Below are positions 3,425 through 26,781 of a stretch of 28,035 nucleotides of DNA, in pieces. The position numbers and the translations under genes are program-made. The number at the start of each line of letters is the position of its first letter. The first letter of the stretch is position 1. The stretch lies in the IMG/VR virus record IMGVR_UViG_3300031565_000278, positions 1 to 28,035 of that record; one strand, given 5' to 3'. The notes beneath the pieces are model-generated. The model was not told where the DNA came from, made no database searches, and saw nothing but the letters and a program-made list of their open reading frames with translations. Source of the stretch: a virus.

Positions 3425-3982
3425 ATGGCAAATGAAGCGGCCGTAACAATAGTCGCCCGAATGCGGGACGAAGCTTCGGCCAAAATGCAAAACCTGGGGA
3501 AGACCACGGCGAAGACGAATATCACAATGGCGGAAACCCAAATGACCTTGACGGCCGTCGGTTCCGCCCTGGTCGGCGTCGGGGCCTTGTTGGGTAAAAT
3601 GGACAACCCCCTGGCGAAGACCGCTTCGACATTCCTATTGACCGCGGGGGCCATTGGCGCGACGGCGGGGGCCATAATGAACATGATTCCGTATATTGGG
3701 AAGCTTATAACCTGGTTGCGTTCCCTGGCAATCGCCCAAACGCTTGTCGCCGCCCTTTCGGGCCCCGCTGGTTGGGCTAGAATTGGAATTGGCCTGGGTA
3801 TCGCCGCGGCGGGAACCGCGGGCATCGTCGCCGCGACGGGCGGGTTCGGCGGACGTGGGGGCGGAACGACCCAGGTCGTCAATATCAATTCCCAGGCATT
3901 CACGGGAAACGACGCGGAAGCCAGGAAGTTCGCTTCCAAAGTCCAGCGATATTCCAGGGAAGAAACCAGGTTGGGAAGATAA
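3425..3982 (+). CDS. Very short tape measure protein, 185 aa
   Basis: The ATG has AAGGGGG 8 bases upstream. The product opens with 'VTIVARMRDEASAKMQNLGKT', the 'I.V.A.DEASA.l..l' start common to many tape measure proteins. Two hydrophobic, Ala/Gly-rich segments follow (about residues 46-80 and 84-140), including 'ALSGPAGWARIGIGLGIAAAG', a pattern often found in the hydrophobic part of tape measures. It ends with a Gly-rich linker and a basic tail. It directly follows the chaperone genes. Family members usually have 600-2000 residues, so 185 is exceptionally small. By the established ratio of about 1.5 angstrom per residue it would specify a tail of roughly 28 nm. Confidence 0.7.
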   Translation: MANEAAVTIVARMRDEASAKMQNLGKTTAKTNITMAETQMTLTAVGSALVGVGALLGKMDNPLAKTASTFLLTAGAIGATAGAIMNMIPYIGKLITWLRSLAIAQTLVAALSGPAGWARIGIGLGIAAAGTAGIVAATGGFGGRGGGTTQVVNINSQAFTGNDAEARKFASKVQRYSREETRLGR

Positions 3983-3985
3983 CAA

Positions 3986-6900
3986 ATGGAAATTGAGAAA
4001 GTAAGCGACCCCGCGCGAATGACAACCGACCAGACTTTGCTTTCCCATTTGGCGACGGCGGGCCTTGAAAAAGACTTCGTCGCATTCGTCCAGGATTACA
4101 CACCCGAACACCCTTACGCCAAATTATACGAAGACCGCGTTTCGAAGCGGAAGTTCGCCGTTATATCACAGCTTCCAATGGTCAAGGTCGGCGGCCAAAA
4201 GATTGAAGCGGCCTGGTTCTATTCAGAGAAACAAGGCGCGTGGTATTCGCGGGCGAACCTTTTTTCGGCCATTGTATCGGGGTCGAAGGTCCAGCTTACT
4301 TGTCTATACCCGCAACCGAACGGGGCAAAATTGGGCGACCAGGTTGTCTTCCACGCCCAGGTCTTCGTTGACGGCGTCGAAGTTCTTCCGAAATCGGAAA
4401 AACCGAACTGGTTGGAAAGCGACCCATTCAACGAAAACTATAATCAAAACGTCCTTGAATGGGATTATGGAATTTGCAAGCGAAGATTGCGGCTTCTTGA
4501 AGGCCGTCTTTTGGGTTCCTGGTTATTCGAAAAGAAACCTGGCGGGACGGTCAAGCTGAAGTATAATCAGGTCGGGACGCTTCGGCTTAAACTTGGTTCG
4601 TTTGCTATTGGCGAAGACGAAGTCATTACGCCCGAACAATTCGAAGAATTCGGAAGATACCCTGTAAACATATCTGATAGTCAAACATTCTACCCCGACG
4701 CTTCCCCGACTTCAACGTCTTGTGATGGAGTAGTAAGACAGGCCAGTGTTGATATGTCATGGGCCGCTATAAGGGCAACAGTTGGCAACAACAAGATTGA
4801 TAATGACGATGGCGGCGAATTCTGCGACGGCGTTCATTGGAGATGGCGACCTGGCGGGCTTGGATTCAGGTATCTTTCAAGACCAATACTTCTTTTCGAT
4901 ACTTCGGGCCTTCCTGACGAAGCGACCGTCATATCGGCGACCCTTTCCCCTTTTGGTAGTGTGAGAGGAAACCCGTCAAGTTCTACTATATCGCTTAATA
5001 TCTATGTCCCCACGACGGCTAGTAATACCGAACTTACTACGACGGATTATAACTATTTGGGGTGGGGTGCAACTAAGCTTTGTGATACCGACAAGCAATA
5101 TGCCAGTTGGAGTTTAGTCGGCTATAATGCTTTCATTTTGAATGCCGCTGGTATCGCGAACATATCGAAGACGGGAATTAGTAAGTTCGGAATTCGTGAC
5201 GTTGATTATGACGTCGGCGGGTCCACTCCCCCAGGAAGCGGAATATCTGACCTAGATACTTATATGTGTTGTTGGTATTCTGAAAAGGGGGCTGGTTATA
5301 AACCGAAGCTGGTTGTTGAATATTCCGCCATTACCGTTCCAGTTATGGACACAGCGGACGCGGACAATATCGGCAACGAACAAGCCGACCTTCACGGCGA
5401 AATCGTAAGCACAGGCGGCGACAATTGCGACTTCCGCGGCTTCGTTTACGGCAAGGAAAGCTTCGGCGACCCAGGGGACACGGCCCCCGCTGATAGTGAT
5501 TATTCTGACTATTGGACGGAAGGCGGTTCCTTCGCCGCTGGCGTATTCGATAGGACGCAAACGGGACTGGACAGCGGGGCGACGTATTACGTTCGGGCTT
5601 GCGCGCATAATTCGCAAGGTTGGGCTTATGGCGACCAAATATCCTTCGCAACGATACCCGATATTTATACTTATCAAGCAACGAATATCGAATCGAATCA
5701 AGCGACGGGGAACGGGTCAATTGAAAGCGTGACTGGCATTGAAGCCGTTGGCTTCGAATGGGGCATTGAATCGGGGACGTATGACGACAGTGTTGAATCG
5801 GCCCTGATTGAACCAGGCGACTTCGCCCTTCAAATGACTTTACTGGAAGCATCAACGAAATACTACTTTCGCGCCTATGCTTACGATTCGGAAGCCGCCT
5901 ATATTTACGGCGAAGAAAAGTTCTTCACCACGTTACCGCCGACGCCCGTCGTTAGAACCGACCCGCCGACCGACGCGCAAATTGACCATATTGACGCCGT
6001 CGGTTATATCACGTCAATCGGTTCGGCAAACGCCGACTTCCGCGGCTTCGTTTACGGGTTGACTTCAAAGTCGAAGCCTGATTATTTGACCGCGCCAGGG
6101 GCTTCAGGATATGACGATTCGGTCGAAGAAGAAGGCGATTACGGGGTCGGGGCTTTCGCCATTACGCTTTCGAACCTGGAAGCAAGCCGAACTTATTACG
6201 TCCGCGCCTGGGCCCATAATTCATACGGATACAATTATGGAAACGAACTGGCAATCGTGACGAACTATGACGTTAATATCCTTTTGCCTTCGGGGAATTA
6301 TTCGGCTGGTATCCGCTTCGATACTTCGCCAGGCGGGGGGTATCCCTCACTTGGCGGCGGGGACATTCCCCATTATTTGCTGGTCCGTTCCAAAGATACC
6401 ATTTACACGGCGGGCGGATATTGGGGCTCAATCAGCGGCGAAGGCGTTTACGAACGCAGTTATTACAATTCGAATTATTATACGGACCTCTACACTTTGA
6501 CGAACCCTTATCGGCGAACTGAATCAATAATCAAGGTCAAATGGAAAGCCCGCTTCTTTGCGAATGCGTATCCTTACGGGAACGCGGGAAGGGAAGTCCG
6601 AACCCATTCGACGACATATTCTTCAGCGCGAACGAAGATTCACGTCGCGGCTTTGGGCGATACCCGTTGCGAAGTATTTTACGTCAACTTGAATACGTCG
6701 GCCGCCTGGTCCCTGGCCGAAGCCGACGCCCTGGTCGGCGGAATAACGGTTGGCGAAGAAGCTTCATACGGGATAGCCTTCGGCGACTGGTTCGAAATGC
6801 GCGTCCTTTGGGCGAATGCTGAAGTCCGAACCGATTACGGGGAAAAGCTTTCGGCGAACGAACTTCGATTGAACGGTTACGTCGTCCAGGACGAAGCCGA

Positions 6901-11721: not shown

Positions 11722-12819
11722 ATGACAACCGAAAACAGACACAGCATGACCCAGGGAACCGTCTTGAATGAAACCGAAAAGGCCCGCGTTCGCGAAAACG
11801 TCCGCCGCTTGAACCAGCGCGAAGTCGCCTTCGCCGACGTTATCGGGGAAGCCCGCGAATGGGACGCGACGCATAATCCGTTCGACCGAACGACCAGGCT
11901 TCCGCTTTTCCAGTATATCGTCGAAGAAGGAACGGGCGGGGCCCTGGTCCCCTTCAAGACGACCGACGTGGTCCCCGCGGGTCACGGCTTCAGCAATGCG
12001 GCCGTCGGCCTTCTTCCCCACGCCCACGGGCAACTTTTGTCCCGCCTGGACTTCGCGAAGCGGACCTTCGAAAAGCTTCCCGAAAAGCTTCAAGTCTTGA
12101 ACCTGAATTGGCTTATTCAAAACCATTACGACAAGGAAGTTCTTCTTCGTGTCATTGACGAAAACAAGGTCCGCGCGCTTATGTCCGCCGACTTCGAACC
12201 GTTCGACGACCTGGAACTTCTCACAATCGCCGAACCCTATATCGGCGACGGGACCGTCCGCTGGTATCATACCGACGACCAGGTCCTTCACTTGTCAATC
12301 ACCTGGCCGAACACGGAAGAAGAAATCAGGGTCGGCGACGTGGTCCAGACTGGCCTTCACATTTCGAATTCGGAAGTCGGCCTTCGGTCGGTCACAATCG
12401 CGGGCGTCGTTTGGCGCGTCAAATGTTCGAACGCCCTTATCGGCGGCGGGGAAGGCGGCGGAATGCGTCGCTTCCGTCACGTCGGCAATACCGACAAGCT
12501 TCGGGACCAGGTCGCCGCGGCCATTGAAGAAACGAAGCTGGAAAGCACGAAGGTATTATCACAGTTCAAGGCTTCGCTGGAAAAGGCCATTGACGACCCC
12601 TTCAACTATCTGGAACGGGTCGCGAAGGACAAGACCAACGAAATGTCCCAGGACGACTTCAAAGCGGCAATGGACGCCTTCTTGACCGAACCCGAAAACA
12701 CCTTGTTCGGCGTGACCAACTCATTGACCAGGGCCGCCCAGGGATACCAGGGCGAAGACAAGTATCACCTGGAACGGGTCGCCGCGAAGGTCCTGAATGA
12801 AGGGCTTCGGGCCAGTTAA
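11722..12819 (+). CDS. DUF932 domain protein, 365 aa
   Basis: The ATG follows AAAGGAG, the only classical ribosome binding site with GGAG in this window, suggesting strong expression. The 365-residue product has the middle signature of DUF932 (phage/plasmid TIGR03299-like) proteins: 'DENKVRALMSADFEPFDDLELL' at about residues 146-167, followed by the 'GLHISNSEVGLRSVTIAGVVWRVKCSNALI' block and a C-terminal helical region rich in Lys and Glu. DUF932 proteins are common in phages and plasmids and their biochemical role is unsettled. Length is close to family norm. The gene stands between two hairpins that may insulate its message. Confidence 0.78.
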   Translation: MTTENRHSMTQGTVLNETEKARVRENVRRLNQREVAFADVIGEAREWDATHNPFDRTTRLPLFQYIVEEGTGGALVPFKTTDVVPAGHGFSNAAVGLLPHAHGQLLSRLDFAKRTFEKLPEKLQVLNLNWLIQNHYDKEVLLRVIDENKVRALMSADFEPFDDLELLTIAEPYIGDGTVRWYHTDDQVLHLSITWPNTEEEIRVGDVVQTGLHISNSEVGLRSVTIAGVVWRVKCSNALIGGGEGGGMRRFRHVGNTDKLRDQVAAAIEETKLESTKVLSQFKASLEKAIDDPFNYLERVAKDKTNEMSQDDFKAAMDAFLTEPENTLFGVTNSLTRAAQGYQGEDKYHLERVAAKVLNEGLRAS

Positions 12820-12832
12820 AACGGAACGACGG

Positions 12833-12857
12833 GCGGCGGGGCTTCGGGTCCCGCCGC
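12833..12857 (+). terminator. GC-rich hairpin after the DUF932 gene
   Basis: GCGGCGGG (12833-12840) pairs with CCCGCCGC (12850-12857), a perfect 8-bp stem with a 9-base loop, followed by TTGTT. It lies 14 bases after the DUF932 stop and 21 bases before the lipoprotein start. It is probably a weak terminator or transcript-end stabiliser, because the U-tract is short. Confidence 0.5.
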
Positions 12858-12877
12858 TTGTTGAAGGAAGTATATCA

Positions 12878-13429
12878 ATGAAGAAGACAATCGTTGCAAT
12901 GGCCGTCCTGGGGCTTCTCATTGGGGCCCTGGGTTGCCAACCGAACGCCCCCGTCGCGACTGGAAAGCCGTCGGCGGGGGTCCCGCGTTTCGCGGACCTT
13001 ATGAACCAGTCGTCCCAGGAAGACCAGGTCTTCGCCGTCCCGTCCTTCGTCGTGACCGACTTCCAGGAAACCAGGTCGCCCGAAGCCTGGTCCATAACGG
13101 GGACCATTCGCCAGGCGGACCCCGCAATCCCTGGCCTGAAGTTCGACCGATTGCTGGTCGTCTTCGCTTACCTGGACGGCCGACCTTGCGAATACCAGGT
13201 CCCCGACCACGGTCCATTGAATGACCTGGTCGCCCCGATACCCTTCGCCCTGGTCCTGGGCCCCGACAATTACGAAGACGCGGGGTTCGGCTTCGCCGAC
13301 TTCCAGGACTTCGAAGCGACGTCACGCCTGGACCAAATCGTCGTCCAGGTCTTGACCAACAAGAACAAAGTCGAAACCCGTCCGAACCACTGGACGGGAA
13401 CGTTTATCGCTGAAAGGGGGGCACAATGA
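12878..13429 (+). CDS. Phage-encoded lipoprotein, 183 aa
   Basis: The start at 12878 is chosen over 12797 because it yields a signal peptide: MKKTIVAMAVLGLLIGALGC, with a lysine-rich n-region, hydrophobic core and a lipobox-like A-L-G-C ending in Cys20. The -3 residue is Ala rather than the usual Leu, a slightly relaxed lipobox. AAGGAAG is the ribosome binding site. The mature part begins with a Pro/Ala linker and then contains beta strands (DQVFAVPSFVVTDFQ, LKFDRLLVVFAYLDG, RLDQIVVQVLTN). Phage lipoproteins often act in superinfection exclusion at the envelope, which would fit the P1 operon with its other membrane protein. No family is recognised. Confidence 0.65.
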   Translation: MKKTIVAMAVLGLLIGALGCQPNAPVATGKPSAGVPRFADLMNQSSQEDQVFAVPSFVVTDFQETRSPEAWSITGTIRQADPAIPGLKFDRLLVVFAYLDGRPCEYQVPDHGPLNDLVAPIPFALVLGPDNYEDAGFGFADFQDFEATSRLDQIVVQVLTNKNKVETRPNHWTGTFIAERGAQ

Positions 13430-14062: not shown

Positions 14063-15483
14063 TAATCGGACATTGCCCGCATGGGGAATTCGACCTGGAC
14101 AAAGGTTGCCCCGAATGTATCGAAGAACGCCGAAGGAAGGAAGCGGCTTTGGAAGCCGAACGGTCGGGGACGATACCCGAAGACACAAGCGTTCTTCCAA
14201 TGGACGCCGCCCTGGACGTCCCGCTTATCGTCAAGGTTCAATACTGGTCCGACGCGAAGGGCGAAGCCGCTGGCCGCGAATACTCATTCTTCACGGTTGA
14301 CCCGCTGGACGTCGGCGAATTCGTCCAGGTCCCGACCGCTTACGGGGCGACGAAGGCCAGGGTATCCGCCGTCAATATCCCCGACGCGGAAATCGCCGCC
14401 TTCAGGGACCGCGTCAAGACCATTCCGTCGGGGTCCATACGCCCCGACCCGTCCGTCCCAACCAACCAGGAAAGCGTCGAAATCGAAACGACCGAAGTCC
14501 CGTTCACTTTGCCCGAAAGTCAAGTCGGCGGTCCGAACCTATTCGCTGGAAACGCCCCAGGTCTTTTCGACCTGAAGCCCGAAGAACGCTTCCATTGCCC
14601 CGCCGATTGCGGCTTCAGCATTCCCGCGAACTATTCACACGACAACCCCGAACCTGGGGGTTGCGGCAACGAAGAAGCCGTCCCCGAAAACGCTTCCCTG
14701 GAAAACGACCCGACGCTTCCGCTTTGTCCAGGGTTCAAGCTGGCCCCGCCCGAACCCAATTACGAACCGCCCCAGGAAGAAGCAACCGTCGTCCTGGCCG
14801 TTGACCTGGAAGAAGGAACGGTTATCCCCCCCGCCTTGATAACGATTGAACGCCAGGTCGGGAAACCCGCCCCTGAATTGCTTCAGCTTTACAATGAAGC
14901 CGCGTCCCTTCTTCGGGTCGCGAAGGACCGCGTCATTGCCACGAACGAAGACCTGAAGCCCGCGACGAATGACCTGGCGATAATCGCGACTTGTAAAAAG
15001 GCAATGTTCGCCAGGAAGACCGAACTGGTCGGTCCCCTGAAGGCGAAGCTTGACCAGGTCAACCAGGCATTCAACGACATAATGTTTCCCGTCGAAGAAG
15101 CCGACCGATTGACCAGGGGGCAAGTCACGAAATACGACAACCAGGTTCGGGCCCAGGTCGCCGAAGCGCGACGGATTGAAGACGAAAAGTTCAAGCTGGC
15201 CCAGGAAGAAGCGGCCAACAACGGGACGGGGGAAATCACGGTCCCGTTAAACACGGCCCAGGCCCCGCCGCCCCCGCCCGAACGGACCCGAACGGACCTG
15301 GGGACCCTGGGGGGAAGGGACAACTGGAAGGCCCGCGTCGTATCCTTCAAGGACCTTGACGACGCTTACAAGCTGGCGGATATGCAAACGTTGAACGCGA
15401 AGGCCAGGTCCAGCAAAGGGACCGCCGTCATTCCAGGGGTCGAATTCTACAACGAACGGTCAACCACAATCAGAACGAAATAA
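14059..15483 (+). CDS. Phage coiled-coil protein with N-terminal zinc site, 474 aa
   Basis: The start at 14059 is chosen over an in-frame ATG at 13873 because GAAGGGGG precedes it and because the upstream part lies in the P2 leader. Residues 1-20 hold a Cys/His site (C6, H8, C17, C20) in 'GHCPHGEFDLDKGCPEC'. About 50-115 is a beta-rich domain ('REYSFFTVDPLDVGEFVQVP...ARVSAVNI'). A second Cys-rich region lies near 180-230. About 280-400 is a long charged coiled coil, and the end ('NAKARSSKGTAVIPGVEFYNE') matches a C-terminal tail common to phage coiled-coil proteins found near recombination or replication genes. The biochemical role is not known. Confidence 0.62.
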   Translation: MIIGHCPHGEFDLDKGCPECIEERRRKEAALEAERSGTIPEDTSVLPMDAALDVPLIVKVQYWSDAKGEAAGREYSFFTVDPLDVGEFVQVPTAYGATKARVSAVNIPDAEIAAFRDRVKTIPSGSIRPDPSVPTNQESVEIETTEVPFTLPESQVGGPNLFAGNAPGLFDLKPEERFHCPADCGFSIPANYSHDNPEPGGCGNEEAVPENASLENDPTLPLCPGFKLAPPEPNYEPPQEEATVVLAVDLEEGTVIPPALITIERQVGKPAPELLQLYNEAASLLRVAKDRVIATNEDLKPATNDLAIIATCKKAMFARKTELVGPLKAKLDQVNQAFNDIMFPVEEADRLTRGQVTKYDNQVRAQVAEARRIEDEKFKLAQEEAANNGTGEITVPLNTAQAPPPPPERTRTDLGTLGGRDNWKARVVSFKDLDDAYKLADMQTLNAKARSSKGTAVIPGVEFYNERSTTIRTK

Positions 15484-16217: not shown

Positions 16218-17089
16218 TGGCCGACCGACCGCAAGGAACGACAATCCCGAAGCAACGCCTTTCAATAACGAATATCGAAATGGACGTCCCCTATTCCCAG
16301 GGGACGAAGCAACTGGACCGCGTTCACGCCGTCAACCTTTCCCTTCCTGAAGGCGACCCAATGGCGGGGAAGGACCTTCGCTTGACTATCTTCAACGGGG
16401 ACCTGAAGACCTTCGTCCGCGGGAAGACGAACCTTGTCGCCGACATTGAAGAACGCCCCAGGCCCGAAAGCGATTATGGTCCCGACCGAACCATTGTCCA
16501 GGTATATGACGACCAGGGTCAACCCGTTTCCAGGAAGCAATTCGGCGGCGGGGGCGGTTCCTGGAAGCGAAGCCTGGAAGACGACCTGGCCCTGGAAGCC
16601 GTCAAGCGGCTTTCCATTGAAGGACAAACGGCAATCGCCCAGGTCGGGGGATTGTTGACAAGCCCCGCCGACTTGAACCTGGAAGAACTGGCCCTGGACC
16701 CTGAAATCTGGACCCGTATCCTGGGGAAGTATTGGAAGGCCGTCGAACAATCCCTTGACAACTTCCTGGCGAAACCGACCCAGGCAACCGCGGCAAAGCC
16801 CGTCCAGCGGGCCCAGGATACACGACAAGCGGTTCAACCGCCCGCGGGGGTATCGAAGGACAATCCGCCGCCCCCCGACCCCGTCAAACACGTCGGGGAC
16901 CTATTGACCAGGGCGGCGAAACTGGTCCCGCCCGTCAACCCCGCGGAAGTCGCGCAAGCTTGCCAGGTCGAACGCGCCGACCAGTTGACCGACCTGGAAG
17001 ACGCCTGGAAGAAGGTCCAGGCATATTCGAAGAAGAAGAAGGACCCGTCCGACCCTGAATGGGACAAGCTAACCAGGGACGGGAATTGA
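16217..17089 (+). CDS. Hypothetical phage protein in replication/recombination region, 290 aa
   Basis: The start is the ATG overlapping the upstream TAA (TAATG). A longer frame from 16151 would run over the previous gene and is rejected. The N-terminal half is beta-rich with a 'DRVHAVNLSLPEGD' strand and a 'DRTIVQVYDDQGQPVSRKQFGGGGGSW' segment. The middle is a long helical stretch (LALEAVKRLSIEGQTAIAQVGGLL), and the C-terminal third is Pro/Ala-rich with a final charged helix. No catalytic motif is visible. Weak resemblance of the N-terminal part to OB-like single-strand-binding proteins is speculation. It is coupled to the HNH gene. Confidence 0.5.
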   Translation: MADRPQGTTIPKQRLSITNIEMDVPYSQGTKQLDRVHAVNLSLPEGDPMAGKDLRLTIFNGDLKTFVRGKTNLVADIEERPRPESDYGPDRTIVQVYDDQGQPVSRKQFGGGGGSWKRSLEDDLALEAVKRLSIEGQTAIAQVGGLLTSPADLNLEELALDPEIWTRILGKYWKAVEQSLDNFLAKPTQATAAKPVQRAQDTRQAVQPPAGVSKDNPPPPDPVKHVGDLLTRAAKLVPPVNPAEVAQACQVERADQLTDLEDAWKKVQAYSKKKKDPSDPEWDKLTRDGN

Positions 17090-17538
17090 AACCAGGCAAG
17101 CCGCTTCAGCGGCGAACGCCTTTGAAAAGGACGCCCTTCCGTCGAAGGCGGGGCGTCCTTCCTATGCCCGCCGCGGACCCGCCGCCGACTAGGGCCCAGG
17201 TCAAGCGTCGGAAGGAAGAACTGGCCCGCCGTCGGAAACTGAAGCGGGAACTTCTTCTTGAATGCCCCAGGGACGGCGACGTTATCCTTTGCCCGCGTTG
17301 CCTGAAGCGACCAGACTTCCGCGGCCTTCAACTGGTCCACAAGGTCGCGCTTTCCGCTTGCGGGAAAACGACCCGCGACAATTGCGTCATTCGTTGCGCG
17401 CCTTGCCACTTCGGACACGGCGAACCCTGGTCCCATAGGACCGAAGGAAAACCAGGGAAAGGGGACCCTTCCGAAAAGGGGCCTTCCCAAATATTCGACC
17501 AGGGCGGAATTCCAGGGGACGCTTCGGGCTTGACATAG
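17086..17538 (+). CDS. HNH endonuclease, 150 aa, TTG start
   Basis: The TTG at 17086 overlaps the upstream TGA (TTGA) and gives 'MKPGKPLQRRTPLKRTPFRR', an N-terminus typical of phage HNH proteins. The in-frame ATG at 17059 would add residues overlapping the previous gene. The HNH core lies at residues 69-111: C69-x2-C72, then His85 in 'LQLVHKVALS', Asn99 in 'TTRDNC', and C104-x2-C107-H108 with H111. This matches zinc-stabilised HNH nucleases that make DNA nicks or breaks using one metal ion. Possible roles are recombination, packaging-related cleavage or homing. The Lys/Arg-rich first 55 residues suit DNA binding. Promoter P3 begins inside its last codons. Confidence 0.78.
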   Translation: MKPGKPLQRRTPLKRTPFRRRRGVLPMPAADPPPTRAQVKRRKEELARRRKLKRELLLECPRDGDVILCPRCLKRPDFRGLQLVHKVALSACGKTTRDNCVIRCAPCHFGHGEPWSHRTEGKPGKGDPSEKGPSQIFDQGGIPGDASGLT

Positions 17539-17827: not shown

Positions 17828-18559
17828 ATGATGGTCAAGAAGACCGAAAGCAAGCCCGAAACCACGAACAAGGCCGAAGTCACAACCACGAAGAAGACCG
17901 AAGTCATTCAACCGCTGGCCGTATCAATTACATTCAACGGCATTTCAAATCTGAAGCTTCCGATTGCCCTGGACGACAAAGGCCACCTGGTCGTCGGGGT
18001 CCAGTTCGTCGCAAGGGTTGACCCCTTCGAAATCTTCCGCCTGGTCAACTTATTGAACCAACCGAACGGGGGCCTTTCCGCGACAATCGCGTCGCCTCAA
18101 TCGGCAATGGACTTCAAGTTCGACCCGAAGGCGAAGACCGTCGAAGTCCTTCAGGCCGCCGTTCCCGCCACGATTCCCCAGGGGAAGGCCCAGGAAAAGA
18201 AGACGGGCAAGTCCAGTCCGAAGGAAACGACCGCCGTCCAGGTCGTTCAACCCGAAGAACTGGTCAAGATACACGGCGTCACGTTCAACCATATTCCCGA
18301 AGAAAAGCTTCCCTTCGGCGTCCTGATTGAATACGTCAACGGGACGGGGGAAATCAAGTCGGCCGCTGGCCGCGGAATGAGCCCGACCGAAGCCGTCGTA
18401 TCGGGCGTCAAGAATTGCGGGGCCGTCGCCCAGGAACTTTCGGAACCGTTCGAAATCAGCGCGGCCCTGGACCTTCTGGAACCGTCGCCCGAAGGAAACA
18501 AGCTTATTCGGGTATTGGAAGTCGGTTCGTTCGACATTGAAAAGCCAAAGGGGGAATAA
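17828..18559 (+). CDS. Hypothetical replication-region protein, 243 aa
   Basis: ATGATG after AAAAGGGGG; either Met could start it. Residues 1-30 are a Lys/Thr-rich charged tail. The rest is an alpha/beta protein with 'AVSITFNGISNLKLPIALDDKGHLVVGVQF' and 'KFDPKAKTVEVLQA' strands, a Lys-rich linker near residues 118-135, and a second domain ('VKIHGVTFNHIPEEKLPFGVLIEYVNGTGEI', then helices). No known motif is seen. It sits directly upstream of the replication initiator in the P3 operon, so a part in DNA replication or recombination is possible. This is inference from place only. Confidence 0.5.
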   Translation: MMVKKTESKPETTNKAEVTTTKKTEVIQPLAVSITFNGISNLKLPIALDDKGHLVVGVQFVARVDPFEIFRLVNLLNQPNGGLSATIASPQSAMDFKFDPKAKTVEVLQAAVPATIPQGKAQEKKTGKSSPKETTAVQVVQPEELVKIHGVTFNHIPEEKLPFGVLIEYVNGTGEIKSAAGRGMSPTEAVVSGVKNCGAVAQELSEPFEISAALDLLEPSPEGNKLIRVLEVGSFDIEKPKGE

Positions 18560-18562
18560 AGT

Positions 18563-19462
18563 ATGGGGGCCGAAAGTCGCTTACTATACGACGAACGGCC
18601 GCTGGTCCTTATTCCCGAACTGGCGCGGTTGCTGAAGGGGGTCCCAGGGTTCAACGGCATTGACGAAGCCCTGGTCCTTCAACAAGTCCACTATTGGGTT
18701 ATATTGAACCAGCGGGCGGGCCGCAACGAACAAGACGGCTTCTTCTGGACGTATAACACGTTCGCCGCCTGGTCCGAACAATTCGCGAACTTGTGGTCCG
18801 TTTCCACTTTGAAGCGGATATTCGCGCGTCTGGAAAAGGCGGGCTTCCTGGTCAAAGGGCGGTTCAACAAGTCGAACATTGACCGAACGAAATGGTATCG
18901 GGTCAACCATGAAAGGCTTTCCCTATTGTGTCAAATTGACCCTTCCGTAAGTGTCAATATGGACCTTCCATTGGGTCAACTTGACCCGTTGCATAGTGTC
19001 AACCCGACACTTACGGACCAGGCACAAGCTACGCACGAAAACCCGTTACCAGAGAGTAACCAGAAACAAACTTCAGAGAGTAACAACAGAGAAGAACAAG
19101 GGGCTTCTTCGAAGGCCCCCCGCGCCAATGTGAAACGGGATTATTCAGTCTTCTTTGAAGGAATGCAAGTCTTCTTCAACTATCCGACGTTGACGGACAA
19201 GGACCCTATTCCGAACCACGGGAAGGAAGCGAAAGCCATTGCGCGAATGCTTCAACGGGGGTATTCTGAAGGCGACATAATGGACGCCTGGAAAGCGAAA
19301 TGTTCGTCGCGCGGCGTGAATGGGAAGCCCGTCTTCGTGTCAATGGTATATGTCAATGAAGACATTGGAAAGCCGACCCGACCGATATTCGGCCGCCAGG
19401 CTTCCCTTCTTCCGACCGAAGGCGACCTGGTCGCCCAGGCGAAGGAAAGGGGGCTGAATTGA
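18563..19462 (+). CDS. Phage replication initiator (lambda O-like role), winged-helix, 299 aa
   Basis: The ATG follows AAAGGGGGAATAAAGT. Residues about 10-120 resemble the N-terminal winged-helix domain of phage replisome organizers: 'DEALVLQQVHYWV', 'DGFFWTYNTFAAWSEQFANLWSVSTLKRIFARLEKAGFLVKGRFN' and 'DRTKWYRVNHE', the typical plasmid/phage initiator pattern. A low-complexity linker (about 121-195) is encoded by iteron-like DNA. The C-terminal part (about 196-299) is a helical domain likely to contact the helicase loader, whose gene follows and overlaps by TTGA. The protein would bind the origin inside its own gene and open it. The family call is from the motif pattern. Confidence 0.75.
   Translation: MGAESRLLYDERPLVLIPELARLLKGVPGFNGIDEALVLQQVHYWVILNQRAGRNEQDGFFWTYNTFAAWSEQFANLWSVSTLKRIFARLEKAGFLVKGRFNKSNIDRTKWYRVNHERLSLLCQIDPSVSVNMDLPLGQLDPLHSVNPTLTDQAQATHENPLPESNQKQTSESNNREEQGASSKAPRANVKRDYSVFFEGMQVFFNYPTLTDKDPIPNHGKEAKAIARMLQRGYSEGDIMDAWKAKCSSRGVNGKPVFVSMVYVNEDIGKPTRPIFGRQASLLPTEGDLVAQAKERGLN
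18928..19097 (+). other. Putative phage replication origin: four iterons plus AT-richer repeat region
   Basis: Within the initiator gene, four units with the core G(T/G)GTCAA begin at 18928, 18951, 18973 and 18996, 22-23 bases apart. Two are dyads of the form GGGTCAA-C-TTGACCC. A 12-base inverted repeat TCCGTAAGTGTC (18944-18955) / GACACTTACGGA (19006-19017) embraces units 2-4. Directly downstream an A-rich stretch carries CAGAGAGTAAC at 19050 and 19074 and a variant CAGAGAAGAAC at 19087. This is the layout of the lambda ori: iterons followed by an easily melted region inside the initiator gene. Confidence 0.7.
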
Positions 19463-20046
19463 ACGAAGAAGAAAAGCGGGAACTGTTTTGGAAGCAACGG
19501 GTCGAAGGTAACGTCCAGGCGTCGCGGGTCCCGAAGTCAAGCCGCGGGTTGAAGTTCAAGAACTTGACGGAAACCGAAGGCAACCGAAAGGCCATACGGA
19601 CCGCGACGGACTTCCTGGTCGAAAGGATTGACCCGCCGCTTCTTCTTTTCATTGGCGTTCCAGGCGTCGGCAAAACGACCCTGGCATACCTTATCGCCTG
19701 GGGGTTCCTGGAAGCGGGCGAAACCGTCATATACTACCAGGCGGAAGAACTATTGAACGACCTTCAATCGAAGCTGGAAGACGGGAAGGAATACGGCCGC
19801 TTCTGGTCCAGGTTGAAGGCCGCCGACCTGGTTGTCCTGGACGACCTGGGGGCCCACAATCGAACGGCCTGGCGGGACGCCCAACTGGACGCCCTGGTTG
19901 ACTACCGATACCGCGAACGCCTTCCCCTGGTTATGACAGCGAACAAGCTGGCGGACCAGTCCGAACGTATCCTGGACCGCGTCAAGGAAGGCGCGTCGGC
20001 CGTGATAACTGGCGAAAGCTGGCGCGGGAAGGGGAAGACCAAATGA
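19459..20046 (+). CDS. DnaC-like AAA+ helicase loader, 195 aa
   Basis: It starts with TTG overlapping the upstream TGA (TTGA). Its ribosome binding site is the GAAAGGGGG at about 19446-19453. The protein has a Walker A motif GVPGVGKT at residues 66-73, Walker B LVVLDD at 124-129, a sensor-like VMTAN at 158-162, and Arg-rich 'SERILDRVKEG' near 168-178, the standard layout of DnaC/IstB-type loaders. At 195 residues it is shorter than DnaC (245), with a reduced N-terminal region. It would load the host replicative helicase onto DNA opened by the neighbouring initiator. The C-terminus is basic. The gene overlaps the next by ATGA. Confidence 0.82.
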   Translation: MNEEEKRELFWKQRVEGNVQASRVPKSSRGLKFKNLTETEGNRKAIRTATDFLVERIDPPLLLFIGVPGVGKTTLAYLIAWGFLEAGETVIYYQAEELLNDLQSKLEDGKEYGRFWSRLKAADLVVLDDLGAHNRTAWRDAQLDALVDYRYRERLPLVMTANKLADQSERILDRVKEGASAVITGESWRGKGKTK

Positions 20047-20342
20047 CGTTCACAATGAAGAATTATTATGCCAACCTTCGCCGCGGGGATTGTCCCCAAT
20101 GCGGCCGCCTCAGGGACGCCGACGGCTTCCTTTGTCAAAGTTGCCTGGAAGGGAACCGCCGCCGCCTGGCCCTGGTCCCCAGGGAATTGAAAGCCGAATA
20201 TCGGCGGACCTATAAGGAACGGAACCGAAAGGCGGGGCTTTGCCCGCGTTGCGGGAAGCCGCCCGCGCCTGGTCGGGTCCATTGCCGAATTTGCCTGAAA
20301 AAAGAATTCGCCGCCCGTCGGCGAAAGGGGGTTCTGGTATGA
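20043..20342 (+). CDS. Double zinc-ribbon protein, 99 aa
   Basis: The start overlaps the loader stop (ATGA). It contains two complete four-cysteine sites: C17-x2-C20 with C31-x2-C34, and C67-x2-C70 with C81-x2-C84, joined by a basic helical linker (RRLALVPRELKAEYRRTYKERNRK). It is rich in Arg and Lys, so nucleic acid binding is likely. It sits between the helicase loader and the RuvC-like resolvase in tight overlap with both, suggesting a replication or recombination accessory. No named family is recognised. Confidence 0.65.
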   Translation: MTFTMKNYYANLRRGDCPQCGRLRDADGFLCQSCLEGNRRRLALVPRELKAEYRRTYKERNRKAGLCPRCGKPPAPGRVHCRICLKKEFAARRRKGVLV

Positions 20343-20827
20343 CCAGGTTTATATCGCTTGACCCTTCAACAACGTTCACGGGTTGGTCCGTCTTCCAGGA
20401 CGAAGCCCTGGTCGCCTGGGGGAAGATTGACACGCGGAAGGTTGACTATTCCTTCCGCTTCCAGTTCATTATCAACGAACTGATTCACCTGGTCCAGCAA
20501 TACGACTTCCAGGAAATCGCAATCGAAGACGTGAAGTTCGCCTGGCATGGGACCAACCGAAACCGAAACATTGCGGGCCTTCAGATTGTCTTCCGTTCAA
20601 TCCAGGAATGGGCGAAAGGCGCGGGCCTGGTCCTGGCCGCTTACAACCCCGCGACCTGGAAGAACGGCGTCGTCGGGTCGTCCCATGCGTCGAAGGAAAC
20701 CACGAAGGAAAATCTTTGCTTCAGGTTCCCCAGGCTTCCCAGGGGATTGACCGACCACGAATACGACGCCCTGGGGATAGGCGTATATCATGGGGGAATG
20801 CTGAAGCTGGAAGGAATGATGAAATGA
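20339..20827 (+). CDS. RuvC-like Holliday junction resolvase, 162 aa
   Basis: The start is the ATG at 20339 overlapping the previous stop (ATGA) and preceded by GAAAGGGGG. The in-frame ATG at 20240 is rejected because it would run over the zinc-ribbon gene. The RuvC fold motifs are present: D8 in 'ISLDPSTTFTGWSVF', E63 in 'AIEDVKF', and H140 with D143 in 'TDHEYDALGIG', giving the metal-binding acidic set of the family. Its 162 residues match RuvC length. It would resolve four-way junctions during replication or before packaging, ahead of the terminase step. It overlaps the next gene by ATGA. Confidence 0.82.
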   Translation: MTRFISLDPSTTFTGWSVFQDEALVAWGKIDTRKVDYSFRFQFIINELIHLVQQYDFQEIAIEDVKFAWHGTNRNRNIAGLQIVFRSIQEWAKGAGLVLAAYNPATWKNGVVGSSHASKETTKENLCFRFPRLPRGLTDHEYDALGIGVYHGGMLKLEGMMK

Positions 20828-21274: not shown

Positions 21275-22056
21275 TATACGAAACGAAGGGCCGCGCCAGG
21301 GAATACTTCGAACTGGCCGCCAATTTATACACGGGTTGCGAATTCGCTTGCGTCTATTGCTTCGCGCCCGAAATCATGCGGAAGGACCCGAAGGAATTCC
21401 ACGGCCGCGCGGTCCCCAGGCAAGGCGGCGACGGGGCCCTGGCAAACTTGCGGAAGGACGCCGAACGAATGAACGCCAGGGGCGACGACCGACACGTCCT
21501 TTTGTCCTTCATAACGGACCCGTATCAACCCGCCGAACGGGACTTCCAATTGACCAGGCGGGCAATTGAAGAACTTCACAGATACGGAATTCCCGTCGCG
21601 ATACTCACGAAAGCGGGTTGGCCCGCGACCAGGGACTTCGACTTGTTGGGGCCCGCCGACCTATTCGGAACGACCTTGACCTTCCAGGACCCGAAGCTTT
21701 CCCGCGTATGGGAACCAGGGGCGGGTCTTCCTTCAATGCGTATCAAGTCCCTGGAAGACGCGAAGGTCCGCGGGATTGGGACCTGGGTATCATGCGAACC
21801 CGTCATTGACCAGTCGGAAACCCTGGCCTTGATTGAACGGACCGCCCCGATTGTGGACGTCTTCAAGGTCGGGACGTTGAACTATTCCAGGAAGCTTCCG
21901 CGGGACCTGGTTCCGCCGCCGATTGACTGGAAGCTATTCGCCCAGGACGTCGTCAAGCTTCTGGACCGCCTGGGGGCGAATTACTATATCAAGAAGGACC
22001 TGGCCCGATACCTGGGCCAACCTGAAGGAATAACAGTCGGGGAAATCCCGAAATAA
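21271..22056 (+). CDS. Radical SAM protein (spore-photoproduct-lyase-like group), 261 aa
   Basis: The start overlaps the upstream stop (ATGA). The motif C23-x3-C27-x2-C30 in 'YTGCEFACVYCFA' is the canonical [4Fe-4S] cluster site that binds S-adenosylmethionine. The downstream 'LLSFITDPYQPAE', 'IAILTKAGWPATRDFDLL' (with V), 'TTLTFQD' and 'GTWVSCEPVID' segments follow the usual TIM-barrel strand order of SPL-like/ELP3-like radical SAM enzymes. The 261 residues cover only the core. The substrate is unknown: DNA photoproduct repair or nucleoside modification are possibilities inferred from family relatives. Its place among recombination genes in a phage is unusual but known. Confidence 0.85.
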   Translation: MIYETKGRAREYFELAANLYTGCEFACVYCFAPEIMRKDPKEFHGRAVPRQGGDGALANLRKDAERMNARGDDRHVLLSFITDPYQPAERDFQLTRRAIEELHRYGIPVAILTKAGWPATRDFDLLGPADLFGTTLTFQDPKLSRVWEPGAGLPSMRIKSLEDAKVRGIGTWVSCEPVIDQSETLALIERTAPIVDVFKVGTLNYSRKLPRDLVPPPIDWKLFAQDVVKLLDRLGANYYIKKDLARYLGQPEGITVGEIPK

Positions 22057-22070
22057 AAGGGGGTTACAAT

Positions 22071-22277
22071 ATGGACATTATCGTTTGTTCGAAATGCGGG
22101 CAAGGAATGGAACGCTTTGAAGCGGTCAACGCGGTCGAAGTTGATTGGGAACGGGACGTCCCCGTTTGCCCGATATGCCGCGGCGTCCCTGGGGCGGTTC
22201 CACTACGCCGACCGCGGAACGTCATTGGGGGCTTTCCCTGGAAGCGCGACGCCCAGGGGAAGAAGGTCCCGAAATGA
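22071..22277 (+). CDS. Small zinc-ribbon protein, 68 aa
   Basis: The ATG follows AAAAGGGGGTTACAAT. C6-x2-C9 in 'VCSKCGQGM' and a second pair in 'VCPICRG' (about residues 33-36) form one four-cysteine site. The C-terminal part is basic (LRRPRNVIGGFPWKRDAQGKK). It is tightly coupled to the following membrane miniprotein by ATGA. No named family or function can be given. It is one of many similar small zinc-ribbon products in this phage. Confidence 0.6.
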   Translation: MDIIVCSKCGQGMERFEAVNAVEVDWERDVPVCPICRGVPGAVPLRRPRNVIGGFPWKRDAQGKKVPK

Positions 22278-22420
22278 AACGACGCGAAGCTTTGTTATGG
22301 GGATTATACTTGATTGTCGCGGGCTTCCTGGCCTGGTTCGTTGCTTTGCTTCCGAAGTCGGGACGCGACGCCGCCCTGGAAGCCGCCGTCGCCAGTGTGA
22401 AAAGGAAGTGGTCGAAATGA
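22274..22420 (+). CDS. 48-aa single-span membrane protein
   Basis: The start at 22274 overlaps the upstream stop (ATGA), and the frame ends in a TGA overlapping the next start. Residues 1-5 are basic, about 6-27 are hydrophobic ('ALLWGLYLIVAGFLAWFVALL'), and the rest is a charged helix ending in Lys-rich residues. This is a typical tiny membrane anchor. It may be an early phage membrane factor, but nothing more specific can be supported. Confidence 0.6.
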   Translation: MKRREALLWGLYLIVAGFLAWFVALLPKSGRDAALEAAVASVKRKWSK

Positions 22421-22602
22421 CAAGCTACAACAAGCCCTGGCGGAAGGTCGTCGAATGGGGGGCTTATATTCCAGGGGGACGCAACGGCGGGGCCCATATC
22501 GCGAAGCTTGAATGCGGCCATTCGACAAGCCGAAAGGCTTCCGCGAACTTCCCGAAGCGCGTTCGTTGCGACTTTTGCCCAATGGAAAGGGCGTCGAAAT
22601 GA
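22417..22602 (+). CDS. 61-aa zinc-binding protein
   Basis: The start overlaps the upstream TGA (ATGA) and the stop overlaps the next start in the same way. The 61 residues contain 'LECGHSTSRKASANFPKRVRCDFC', with C, H, C, C ligands, the pattern of a small treble-clef site ('CGH...RK....P.R.RC..C') seen in several phage miniproteins. The N-terminal half contains 'WRKVVEWGAYIPGG'. Function is unknown. The tight coupling on both sides indicates that it is a real gene. Confidence 0.62.
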   Translation: MTSYNKPWRKVVEWGAYIPGGRNGGAHIAKLECGHSTSRKASANFPKRVRCDFCPMERASK

Positions 22603-23105
22603 ATATCGGCGGAAGCATAAGCGGGGCGACCTTCAGCGACGGGACGCGGCGGTTCCGTGTCGCGCTTTGGCGGATATGGGACCAGGCGAAACCCGCGCTT
22701 CTTTTCGTCGGATTGAACCCGTCCACGGCGACCGACCGCCAGGACGACCCGACCATTCGACGCGTCGCCAGGTTCGCCCGCGAAAGGGGATACGGCGGCC
22801 TATTCGTCGGGAACCTTTTCAGTATCGTTTCCGCGGACCCGACCGTCTTATGGTTGAAGCCGTCGCCCGAACTTCCTGGCGGACCGAATGACACGGCCCT
22901 TCGAAGAATGCGGGAACTATGCGGGGCGACCCTGGTCGGTTGGGGACACTTCGGTTACTTCGCGGGGAAAAGGCCCGTCGAAGTCCTGGCCCTGGTCGGG
23001 AAGCCCGTCTATTGCCTGGGGAAAACGTCGGGCGGTTGGCCGAAACACCCGCTATATTTGCGGGCCGACACGCCGTTCGTCGAATACGAAAGGGGGAAGG
23101 ATTGA
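22599..23105 (+). CDS. DUF1643 protein, 168 aa
   Basis: The start at 22599 overlaps the previous stop (ATGA). The in-frame ATG at 22512 would run over the previous gene. The product follows the DUF1643 pattern: 'RFRVALWRIWD', 'ALLFVGLNPSTATDRQDDPTIRRVARFARERGYGGLFVGNLF', 'GPNDTALRRM' and 'LVGWG', with the conserved NPSTA and DDPTIRR blocks. Length matches the family. The molecular role of DUF1643 is not established. Members occur in phages and mobile elements and resemble DNA-repair glycosylase-like folds, a relation I state only as a guess. It is coupled to an ASCH gene by TTGA. Confidence 0.8.
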   Translation: MNIGGSISGATFSDGTRRFRVALWRIWDQAKPALLFVGLNPSTATDRQDDPTIRRVARFARERGYGGLFVGNLFSIVSADPTVLWLKPSPELPGGPNDTALRRMRELCGATLVGWGHFGYFAGKRPVEVLALVGKPVYCLGKTSGGWPKHPLYLRADTPFVEYERGKD

Positions 23106-23497
23106 AAGCGTTATCACTGAAGCAACCCTGGGCCTGGGCGGTCTTCAATGGGAAGGACGTCGAGAACCGAACCTGGAAGACAACCTTCCGCGGCCGCTTT
23201 TATATTCACGCGTCGAAGGGCTTCGATATGGCGGGCTGGAAATGGATTGCCGAAAACGAAAACCGCCTGGGCCTGGTCCTTCCCTGGTATGCGGACCGCG
23301 ACTTCATTCGCGGGGCGATAATCGGCGAAGCGACCCTGGTTGATTGCGTCGTCGGGGACGCTAACGGGTCGCGCTGGTATTCAGGCCCGAACGCTTTTCA
23401 CCTGGCCGACGCGAACCGATACGAAACGCCCGTCCCATACAAGGGGGCGTTGAAGCTATTCGAAGTCAATCTTGAAGGGGGTATCAATGGCGAATAA
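23102..23497 (+). CDS. ASCH domain protein, 131 aa, TTG start
   Basis: TTG at 23102 overlaps the upstream TGA and has GAAAGGGGG before it. It gives an N-terminus 'KALSLKQPWAWAVFNGKDVENRTWKT' after Met, the classical ASCH opening, with 'RGRFYIHASKGFD' next, and 'GAIIGEATLVDCV' forming the second half of the PUA-like beta-barrel. ASCH domains bind or process RNA or modified nucleosides, and some cleave RNA or hydrolyse N4-acetylcytidine. The exact activity cannot be told from sequence. Neighbours are DUF1643 and small zinc proteins. The next start lies 11 bases inside its 3' end. Confidence 0.85.
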   Translation: MKALSLKQPWAWAVFNGKDVENRTWKTTFRGRFYIHASKGFDMAGWKWIAENENRLGLVLPWYADRDFIRGAIIGEATLVDCVVGDANGSRWYSGPNAFHLADANRYETPVPYKGALKLFEVNLEGGINGE

Positions 23498-25281: not shown

Positions 25282-25948
25282 AAAGAAGTCACACAAGAAG
25301 CAACCGCCCCGTCCGTGGAACGCGTTTCGGGCCGACGAACGCCAGGAATACTTCTTCCTGGTATATGAACAAATGGGGGTCAACCGAACCCTGAAGCGAT
25401 TGTGGGGACTTGTCCGCGGCGTCGGGGCGGAAATCTCATTGAAGACCCTGGAACGTTATTCGTCCGAATACGGCTGGCAAGCGAAGATATTGGAACGGGC
25501 CGCCAGGCATGAAAGCGCGGACTTCCAGGACGTCCAGACCCAGGTTGACCGAATGACCGAAGAACACGTTCGGACCTTCCAGGATATAGGGGCCCTGGTC
25601 ACGGCGGGAATTCGGAAGTATCAGAAGCAAATCGAAGACCAGGTCACTTCGGGCCTGGCCCCGACCCTGGACATTGACCTGGCGACAATCGGGAAGCTGG
25701 CGACGACGTATCAATACGGGGAACGCCTGGCGCGTGGACTTGCCACGTCGAAGGCCGAAGTCATTATCGAAGTCCTTCCCCCGCTGGTCAAGGATATGTT
25801 CGCCGTCTTCCTGGCCGTGAACGTTATCACGAACGACCCGCCCGAACTGGTCCGCAAGCGGGAAAGCGAATTCATAACGCGGGGGGACCAGGTCTTGAAC
25901 ACTTATTACGGGAAGACCAAAGCCCTTCCCGAACGGGGGTCCGAATGA
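25274..25948 (+). CDS. Putative terminase small subunit, 224 aa
   Basis: The start lies 8 bases inside the upstream gene. The N-terminal third contains a 'QMGVNRTLKRLWGLVRGVG...ISLKTLERYSSEYGWQAKILERA' segment (about residues 33-76) that resembles the helix-turn-helix part of small terminases, with the 'S..T..RW....GW..R' pattern. A long helical coiled-coil region follows (about 80-150). Small terminases recognise the packaging site and stimulate the large subunit. The large terminase gene lies 1.4 kb downstream, separated by a PAPS-reductase-like gene and two small genes. The call rests on this motif plus context. Confidence 0.68.
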   Translation: MPEKKSHKKQPPRPWNAFRADERQEYFFLVYEQMGVNRTLKRLWGLVRGVGAEISLKTLERYSSEYGWQAKILERAARHESADFQDVQTQVDRMTEEHVRTFQDIGALVTAGIRKYQKQIEDQVTSGLAPTLDIDLATIGKLATTYQYGERLARGLATSKAEVIIEVLPPLVKDMFAVFLAVNVITNDPPELVRKRESEFITRGDQVLNTYYGKTKALPERGSE

Positions 25949-26781
25949 AAGTCTTATCATTGGGGGCGGGCGTCCAGTCTTCGACAATCCTTCTTATGGC
26001 TTGTCGCGGGGAATTAGAAAAGCCCGCCCTGGCAATCTTCGCCGACACGGGTTGGGAAGAACCGCGGACATACGCACACTTGAACTTCCTGGAAGACGAA
26101 GCGAAGAAGGCTGGCATTCCGCTTCTTCGGGTATCAAGCGGAAACGTTCGGGACGACCTATTGAACGCGGCCGAAATGAAGACCAGGTTCCAGCAAATAC
26201 CGCTATTCATGCGGCGGAACGGGAAGCTTCAAATGGGTCGCCGCCATTGCACAGAAGTTTATAAAATGCGGCCGATACGACGGAAACTTCGGGAACTCCT
26301 GGACGTCGGCCCCAGGGCCCGCATACCGAAGGCCGAAGTCGAATTATGGGTCGGAATAAGTATTGACGAATACCAGCGGGCGACGCCGTCAAGCAACCAG
26401 TGGGAAAACAAGACCTTCCCGCTGATTGAAAAGCGAATGTCCCGCAACGATTGTCTGTTATGGTTGGCCGACCGTTACCCTGGCCGCGTGGTCCCGCGGT
26501 CGTCTTGTGTAGGTTGCCCGTTCCATTCGACCGAATGCTGGAATGAACTTCGCCAGTTTCCCGAAGTATGGAAGGACGTCCTGGACGCCGACGACCTTAT
26601 TCGTGAAGGCCGTCCCGACGGACAATTATTCCTTCATAGGTCGGGGACCCCGCTTCGCGACGTGGACCTTCGGACGGCTGAAGAAAAGGGCCAATTGACC
26701 TTCCCGTTTTATCAAGAAGAACGATTCCAATTCTTCACGAAGTTGAACATTTGGCTTCCTGAAGAAGAAGGGGGTATATAA
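25945..26781 (+). CDS. Phage PAPS-reductase-like PP-loop protein, 278 aa
   Basis: The start overlaps the upstream stop (ATGA). Residues 5-14 'SLGAGVQSST' form the PP-loop that binds ATP-derived groups, followed by 'ALAIFADTGWEEPRTYAHL', a typical PAPS-reductase/N-type ATP pyrophosphatase strand. Further motifs are 'RRHCTEVYKMRPI' and 'SSCVGCPFHSTECW', a Cys cluster (four Cys) that could bind iron-sulfur or zinc. Phages commonly carry such genes near terminase genes, and their true reaction, possibly sulfur transfer to a base or small molecule, is unproved. Relation to DndC of phosphorothioation is by fold only. The gene overlaps the next by TAATG. Confidence 0.8.
   Translation: MKVLSLGAGVQSSTILLMACRGELEKPALAIFADTGWEEPRTYAHLNFLEDEAKKAGIPLLRVSSGNVRDDLLNAAEMKTRFQQIPLFMRRNGKLQMGRRHCTEVYKMRPIRRKLRELLDVGPRARIPKAEVELWVGISIDEYQRATPSSNQWENKTFPLIEKRMSRNDCLLWLADRYPGRVVPRSSCVGCPFHSTECWNELRQFPEVWKDVLDADDLIREGRPDGQLFLHRSGTPLRDVDLRTAEEKGQLTFPFYQEERFQFFTKLNIWLPEEEGGI

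Follow-up and report, generated by a model that had tools for sequence, protein, structure and literature searches.

The window analysed here is a virus record from IMG/VR, 28,035 bases long and itself a fragment. On its + strand, positions 18563 to 19462 encode a replication initiator of 299 amino acids, for which there are phrog matches and an AlphaFold2 model. The protein has a winged-helix N-domain (approximately residues 1–125), a disordered linker (residues 127–191) and a helical C-domain (approximately residues 195–270). In the model, much of the N-domain has a pLDDT of ~90, and values are below 50 in the linker, which is predicted to be disordered and is encoded by the DNA of the putative origin. 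As the first-pass annotation had stated, a helicase loader gene follows directly (19459–20046, + strand). This gene has a TTG start, overlaps the initiator stop codon and encodes a DnaC-like AAA+ protein; profile searches matched phrog_50 (1.8e-36), PF01695 (5.3e-14) and Bac_DnaA (2.1e-6). Around the replication region are genes for a RuvC-like resolvase (20240–20827), an HNH-type nuclease (17059–17538; a sub-threshold match) and a DUF932-like protein (11722–12819). The phage also encodes a radical-SAM protein (PF04055; 21271–22056) and a PAPS-reductase-like protein (phrog_424, 1.1e-39; 25945–26781).

In profile searches, the initiator best resembles phrog_6493, annotated ‘DnaD-like helicase loader’ (3.5e-30), and phrog_11233 (1.8e-21). 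Its N-domain and linker match phrog_428 (2.6e-13). O-like families scored more weakly (phrog_678, 2.1e-8). No Pfam or NCBIfam model matched the protein, no DnaD-type C-domain (PF07261 or TIGR01446) was detected in it, and a PDB sequence search with the initiator profile found nothing. The solved fold closest to the predicted N-domain is that of RepA_N plasmid initiators (4pql_B; VIA Z 10.0, rmsd 3.8 over 115 residues). Further RepA_N structures gave similar VIA scores (4pt7, Z 9.9; the Rep–DNA complex 5kbj, Z 9.1), and the N-domain of DnaD scored Z 7.5. In Foldseek searches these were remote fold matches only, with E values of 0.03 or worse. Winged helices that bind DNA are common. Hence, with no Foldseek E value below 0.03, the RepA_N match is weak evidence of identity.

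The DNA encoding the disordered linker contains four iterons. The first-pass annotation had noted four G(T/G)GTCAA cores, and we found them as described: GTGTCAA at 18928, 18951 and 18996, and GGGTCAA at 18973, spaced by 23, 22 and 23 bp. Each core is half of a 15 bp dyad, GNGTCAA-N-TTGACNC, and this longer reading fits all four sites. Iteron 1 (18928–18942; GTGTCAA-A-TTGACCC) and iteron 3 (18973–18987; the perfect dyad GGGTCAA-C-TTGACCC, also recognised previously) have no mismatch to GNGTCAANTTGACNC. Iteron 4 (18996–19010; GTGTCAA-C-CCGACAC) has two mismatches, and iteron 2 (18951–18965; GTGTCAA-T-ATGGACC) is degenerate, with three. When synonymous codons were shuffled, keeping the protein unchanged, 2 of 3000 trials produced four cores in the stretch (mean 0.75). 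The iteron starts occupy two reading frames, so the repeat in the DNA does not reflect a repeat in the protein.

Two further features of this segment were considered and set aside. A 12 bp inverted repeat (18944–18955/19006–19017) is present as first described, and one of equal length arose in 1 of 3000 shuffles. Its position is not kept in relatives, and we rejected it as a conserved cruciform. Among the relatives introduced below, L001 and L149 have no inverted repeat of 9 bp or more, and L002, L003 and L148 have others elsewhere. Boxes for host DnaA (TTWTNCACA, allowing one mismatch) occur below chance level in the window; the only such site in the iteron segment lies inside iteron 1.

The iterons are conserved despite drift of the linker, as the earlier reading had predicted. 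The initiators of three close relatives, L001, L002 and L003, are 87%, 73% and 63% identical to that of the window. In these phages iterons 3 and 4 are best kept, and sites 1 and 2 are weaker. A site without mismatches occupies the place of iteron 3 in all three, and at iteron 4 there are 0, 1 and 2 mismatches respectively. Iteron 2 is degenerate in the relatives too; the aligned sites are GTGTCAGAATGGCCC, GTGTCAGAATGGCCC and GTATCAGATTGCGAC. A fourth relative, L148, has the same N-domain and three near-perfect dyads. We then assembled a dereplicated family set of 82 initiators from viral, genome and phage records. In this set we counted 207 sites with the iteron core CAANNTG, compared with 74.6 expected from synonymous-codon shuffles, and they occur in different reading frames. 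The arms of the dyads vary among phages but pair within a site: all four flanking pairs are complementary at 41 sites, against 2.5 expected. Successive cores are 23 bp apart in 48 cases and 22 bp apart in 32. Two points of the first-pass annotation need correction here. The iteron sequence is not foreign to lambda, since lambda iteron 3 contains the same CAANNTG core, and the period is not longer than in lambda, where the distances between iteron starts are 20, 24 and 23 bp.

Downstream of the iterons are two further conserved elements. The first, a CAGGCACAAGCTACGCACGAAAA block (19019–19041, + strand), lies between the iterons and the repeat tract and is conserved at the DNA level in the clade of the window. 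L001 and L002 match it without mismatch and L003 with one, despite protein identity as low as 63%, and it is absent from L148 and L149. The second is a tract of CAGAGANTAAC repeats (19050–19097, + strand), for which we propose a role in opening the strands and loading the helicase. As noted before, the word CAGAGAGTAAC occurs exactly at 19050 and 19074, with the variant CAGAGAAGAAC, carrying one mismatch, at 19087; we found a weaker copy at 19061. Of 3000 shuffles of synonymous codons in the gene, one produced four copies with at most two mismatches, and no further copy of CAGAGAGTAAC with up to one mismatch occurs in the window outside the tract.

The tract had been described as an AT-richer stretch. 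This holds against the window as a whole, where the AT fraction is 0.43 compared with 0.55–0.58 in the tract. It hardly holds against the gene itself: across relatives, the AT excess of the first 30 nt over their own gene is only 0.024. We therefore rejected a plain AT-rich DNA unwinding element (DUE). Easy melting of the tract is not obvious, because it is hardly AT-richer than its host genes. The tract is not merely an AT-richer stretch but a sequence-specific DNA element common to many phages.

The evidence for this comes from the same 82 initiators. Their linkers contain 120 exact copies of CAGAGANTA(A/C), compared with 8.6 expected, and 67 of the 82 hold at least one exact copy (8.3 expected). 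The remaining 15 have none. Outside the linkers, the same genes hold only four. In an unbiased ranking of 7-mers, words from the tract came first (among them ACCAGAG, TACTACA, AGAGACT and TACCAGA), followed by words from the iteron core. The unit can be written TAC(C/T)ACAGAGAN. Units are spaced by 12 bp (47 cases) or 11 bp (15 cases), and the reading frame is therefore often broken. Most often the tract starts 13 bp past the last iteron core.

Repeats inside a coding sequence could be selected as peptide, with the DNA following. Here the peptide would be the linker motif PESN, TETT or TEIT, which might, for example, touch the helicase or SSB. The E and T positions are indeed nearly invariant in the protein alignment. 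Synonymous sites, however, are fixed far beyond codon usage. The tract codon for glutamate is GAG in 135 of 142 cases and GAA in 7, whereas the same genes overall use GAA 1224 times and GAG 693 times. Other tract codons are similarly fixed: CCA (63/67), ACA (54/56), TCA (19/19), ACT (61/62) and AAT (19/19).

We also scanned IMG/VR with patterns defined on DNA alone. A first scan, for pairs of CAGAGANTAAC, returned initiators in only about a quarter of cases; the rest were repeats in coding sequence, including those of tail fibres (SETNAATSETN). Because that scan was swamped by coding repeats, the TAC form was chosen for the unbiased test, as CAGAGANTACNNCAGAGANTAC (12 bp spacing) and CAGAGANTACNCAGAGANTAC (11 bp spacing, which breaks the frame). 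Each pattern found at least 120 stretches, compared with three for a scrambled control. All 80 of the CAGAGANTACNNCAGAGANTAC loci that we read lie in the middle of initiator-like ORFs and share one frame, encoding TE(I/T/N)T, as selection on the peptide would have it. Their N-domains are of more than one type (35 with a QQxxYW signature, 45 other), and 71 of 78 full proteins matched phrog_428, ‘replication initiation protein’. All 80 CAGAGANTACNCAGAGANTAC loci that we read lie in similar ORFs with the same order of linker and tract, the protein type being judged by linker and signature and not by profile. These occupy frame 2 (61 loci), frame 1 (17) or frame 0 (2) and encode unrelated peptides such as TRDYTETT, ITREYTEN and TETTQRLPETT. 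The iterons, too, occupy different frames. Thus, all 160 matches read sit in initiator-like genes, which have N-domains of several types, and together they cover every reading frame; we regard selection on the peptide as extremely improbable. Some loci of a scan are related to one another, and so do not count as independent events; two (L260 and L283) occur in both scans. Since the tract accompanies several N-domain types in every frame, it is, judged from sequence, a DNA signal; it is neither a peptide nor simply AT-rich DNA.

The tract is strand-specific and always on the coding strand, which would also fit an element acting in RNA, such as a piece of mRNA that folds or is bound by a protein. 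Folding analysis detected neither a stable nor a conserved RNA structure in it (z-scores of −1.3, +1.5 and −0.6), and no Rfam family matched at the gathering score; on these two results an RNA element was rejected. DNA is further favoured because the tract keeps a constant place beside the DNA dyads attributed to initiator binding. We consider action at the RNA level highly improbable.

Two relatives show what can change around the tract. The initiators of L148 (2501–3190) and L149 (2501–3421) combine an N-domain and iterons of the window type with a C-domain that is DnaA domain I (PF11638; 1.1e-10 and 9.6e-9, respectively). In L148, ACCAGAGACTAAC comes immediately after the dyads. L148 resembles the window as far as the tract and no further, and the point of exchange is therefore the origin. 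The swap shows phages changing their means of helicase recruitment around the tract.

Cumulative GC skew had been proposed as a check on the origin. In the window, the raw curve has a local minimum at 18315, and the curve with its linear trend removed has its minimum at 19218, 0.2 kb from the proposed origin. We compared related genomes. In G001 the detrended minimum is at 21974, ~0.7 kb from the site (initiator, 22219–23115); in G002 it is at 14424, 1.7 kb away (initiator, 12319–13173); in G003 it is at 4504, inside the initiator (3928–4791). G004 goes against the pattern, with its minimum (17937) far from the initiator (about 30.7 kb). Thus, minima lie within 2 kb of the site in four of five genomes. 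This is weak support for an origin, because related genomes were compared and removing the trend was a matter of choice. In G001, G002 and G003 the last 60 bases of the contig recur near its start, which suggests complete, circularly permuted genomes, although they are classed as linear.

The dyad also occurs away from the initiator gene. In each of G001 to G005, five relatives that share it, a copy (GTGTCAACTTGACAC or GTATCAACTTGACAC) lies in the gap between the genes for the terminase large subunit and the portal (L473:4892–4906, L475:14143, L477:13737, L479:6635 and L483:4906, respectively). These genes were assigned by phrog_38 and phrog_113 in G001 and G003, and by matching ORF ends and starts in G002, G004 and G005. 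About 0.2 dyads, with up to one mismatch, would be expected by chance over five shuffled genomes. The intergenic DNA around the dyad cannot be aligned between G001 and G003, and yet the dyad is retained. Its right half is TTGACA, the −35 box of a putative σ70-like promoter, and a TATTAT-like box lies 17 bases further on in those scored (in G001, TTGACA-17-TATTAT, an 11/12 match). The corresponding place would lie ~0.9 kb beyond the end of the window at 28035. No dyad of this sort was seen in phages whose iterons are of other types. Outside the initiator genes of Staphylococcus phage IPLA88 and Providencia phage PSTCR8lys we found no convincing dyad; hence we take the promoter dyad to be a feature of the clade. 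In G005, a dyad GTGTCAAATTGATAC lies at position 28788 (L484), just downstream of a promoter-like sequence and ahead of the initiator operon, where autoregulation of that operon is possible.

Such copies invite the view that the dyads are operators and that the protein chiefly represses or activates its own gene or late ones. The promoter copies in otherwise diverged DNA are what it would lead one to expect, and the initiator may regulate late genes. It does not account for clustered sites inside a coding sequence, phased at 22 or 23 bp and adjoining the tract and the loader gene, and the homologues of the protein are replication initiators. Moreover, operator and origin uses can coexist. We judge it very unlikely that the protein is not mainly an origin binder. 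As an alternative to an operator, the gap dyad might, by analogy, be a second binding site like oriR of SPP1 (PMC6316719).

We compared the locus with known systems. Replication origins within initiator genes are a known arrangement, found in lambda, in SPP1 (oriL) and in pSK41. In lambda O, phi80 gene 15 and P22 gene 18, iterons that are imperfect inverted repeats, ~20–24 bp apart, lie in the middle of the initiator gene (PMC7466680). An opening region and then the helicase loader gene follow, as in the window. The protein differs: PF04492 (Phage_rep_O) is found in the lambda, phi80 and P22 initiators but does not match that of the window, and profile comparison with lambda O found nothing (hhalign probability 5%). 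Hence, the description ‘lambda-like’ holds for the plan but not for the protein family. The opening regions of these three phages are rich in A and do not contain CAGAGANTAC exactly, and their mapped origins lack the exact tract motif. P22 does have a repeated word, ACAAAAGACAATATACAAAAGACAATA, after its iterons (gene 18, L350:525–560), and lambda gene O (L059) has ACAAAAGACACTATTACAAAAGA in the same place. Both could be repeats of the tract type that have diverged.

The plasmid pSK41 offers another parallel. The N-domain of its Rep protein (RepA_N; ~120 amino acids) binds four boxes inside rep, and residues 121–199, encoded by the origin, act as a linker to a separate C-domain (PMC5703833). 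The boxes, GTGTCAAAAGGACAC with ~22 bp spacing (L472), are close to the dyads of the window. However, pSK41 Rep matches PF06970 and the window initiator does not, and no sequence relation between the two is detectable. A different AT-rich repeat, without CAGAGANTAC, follows the pSK41 boxes, and the C-domain there binds DnaG. The tract is also absent from the chimeric plasmid pPR9, which replicates experimentally and whose phage-like N-domain is of a different type.

A further likeness is to initiators of phrog_6493 and phrog_428, such as gp17 of IPLA88. That protein has the same N-domain family, dyad core and spacing, with the same tract directly downstream of the dyads. The window meets this pattern of CAANNTG dyads at 22 or 23 bp followed by CAGAGANTA(A/C) repeats. 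It differs in the C-domain: gp17 has a DnaD-type domain (PF07261), and the window initiator has neither this nor the DnaA_N of L148 and L149.

The features seen in the first-pass annotation are thus real, and its reading of the locus as an origin gains support, though there are no binding data. The locus has a winged-helix initiator, four dyad iterons of family-wide architecture, a downstream tract selected at the DNA level and a loader gene directly after. We consider it likely that the site is the replication origin of the phage, set in the part of the initiator gene that encodes the flexible linker; this function is inferred, since neither a binding nor a replication assay exists for this phage. 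By inference from known systems, the N-domain would bind the iteron dyads at helically phased sites and build a nucleoprotein core. Strain in this core would open the adjacent tract, one strand of which would be held single-stranded through its CAGAGANTAC units. The C-domain could then hand the DnaC-like loader and a DnaB-type helicase to the opened strand.

Recognition of single-stranded DNA at their own opening regions is known for TrfA and RepE, and for DnaA and DnaD. Iteron-binding Rep proteins bind one strand of the DUE, and every 13-mer is needed (PMC4081077). Lambda O binds single-stranded DNA of its AT-rich region, which is dispensable for binding of O to the iterons (PMC7466680). DnaD reads paired TnnT motifs on one strand of oriC (PMC10201434). 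Like DnaA-trios, the DnaD element and TrfA 13-mers, the phage tract consists of short words repeated on one strand beside initiator boxes, and the complement of each unit contains TANT, which fits 5'-TnnT-3', the DnaD core of Bacillus subtilis (PMC10201434). The phage word differs in being longer, of other sequence and spaced by 11–12 bp, and single-strand binding has not been shown for it. We favour, by analogy, a reading of the tract as single-stranded DNA by the whole initiator assembly or by a host factor, because the tract is kept with several C-domains (O-like, DnaD-like and DnaA domain I) and several N-domains. This is the weakest step. The role of the tract is inferred from its place and conservation, and it could serve another step, such as priming.

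The opening regions of origins in initiator genes are usually described as AT-rich only. A full-text literature search found no account of the tract motif, although it did not extend to papers behind subscription, such as reviews of phage replication modules. In the searchable literature, then, a frame-independent and widely shared tract word is undescribed, and CAGAGANTAC probably represents a component of DNA opening that is common to many phages but had gone undescribed. A broader proposal can be offered only tentatively, as somewhat more doubtful than not: that the origins of tailed phages generally share CAGAGANTAC repeats as a strand-specific code for opening, recognised in single-stranded form, and that in this clade the initiator also occupies the portal operon promoter, tying late transcription to replication. 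Such a tie is suggested by the gap dyad on a putative late promoter, which would couple expression of late genes directly to replication. Sequence-specific recognition of a single strand in phage initiation, as with DnaA-trios, the DnaD element and TrfA 13-mers, can be tested on the tract, and its word can be searched for to locate origins in uncultivated phages. On the broader proposal, CAGAGANTAC is constant across unrelated DNA-binding domains and exchangeable helicase recruiters, and phages would exchange specificity (iterons with N-domain) and helicase partner (C-domain) around this fixed opening element.
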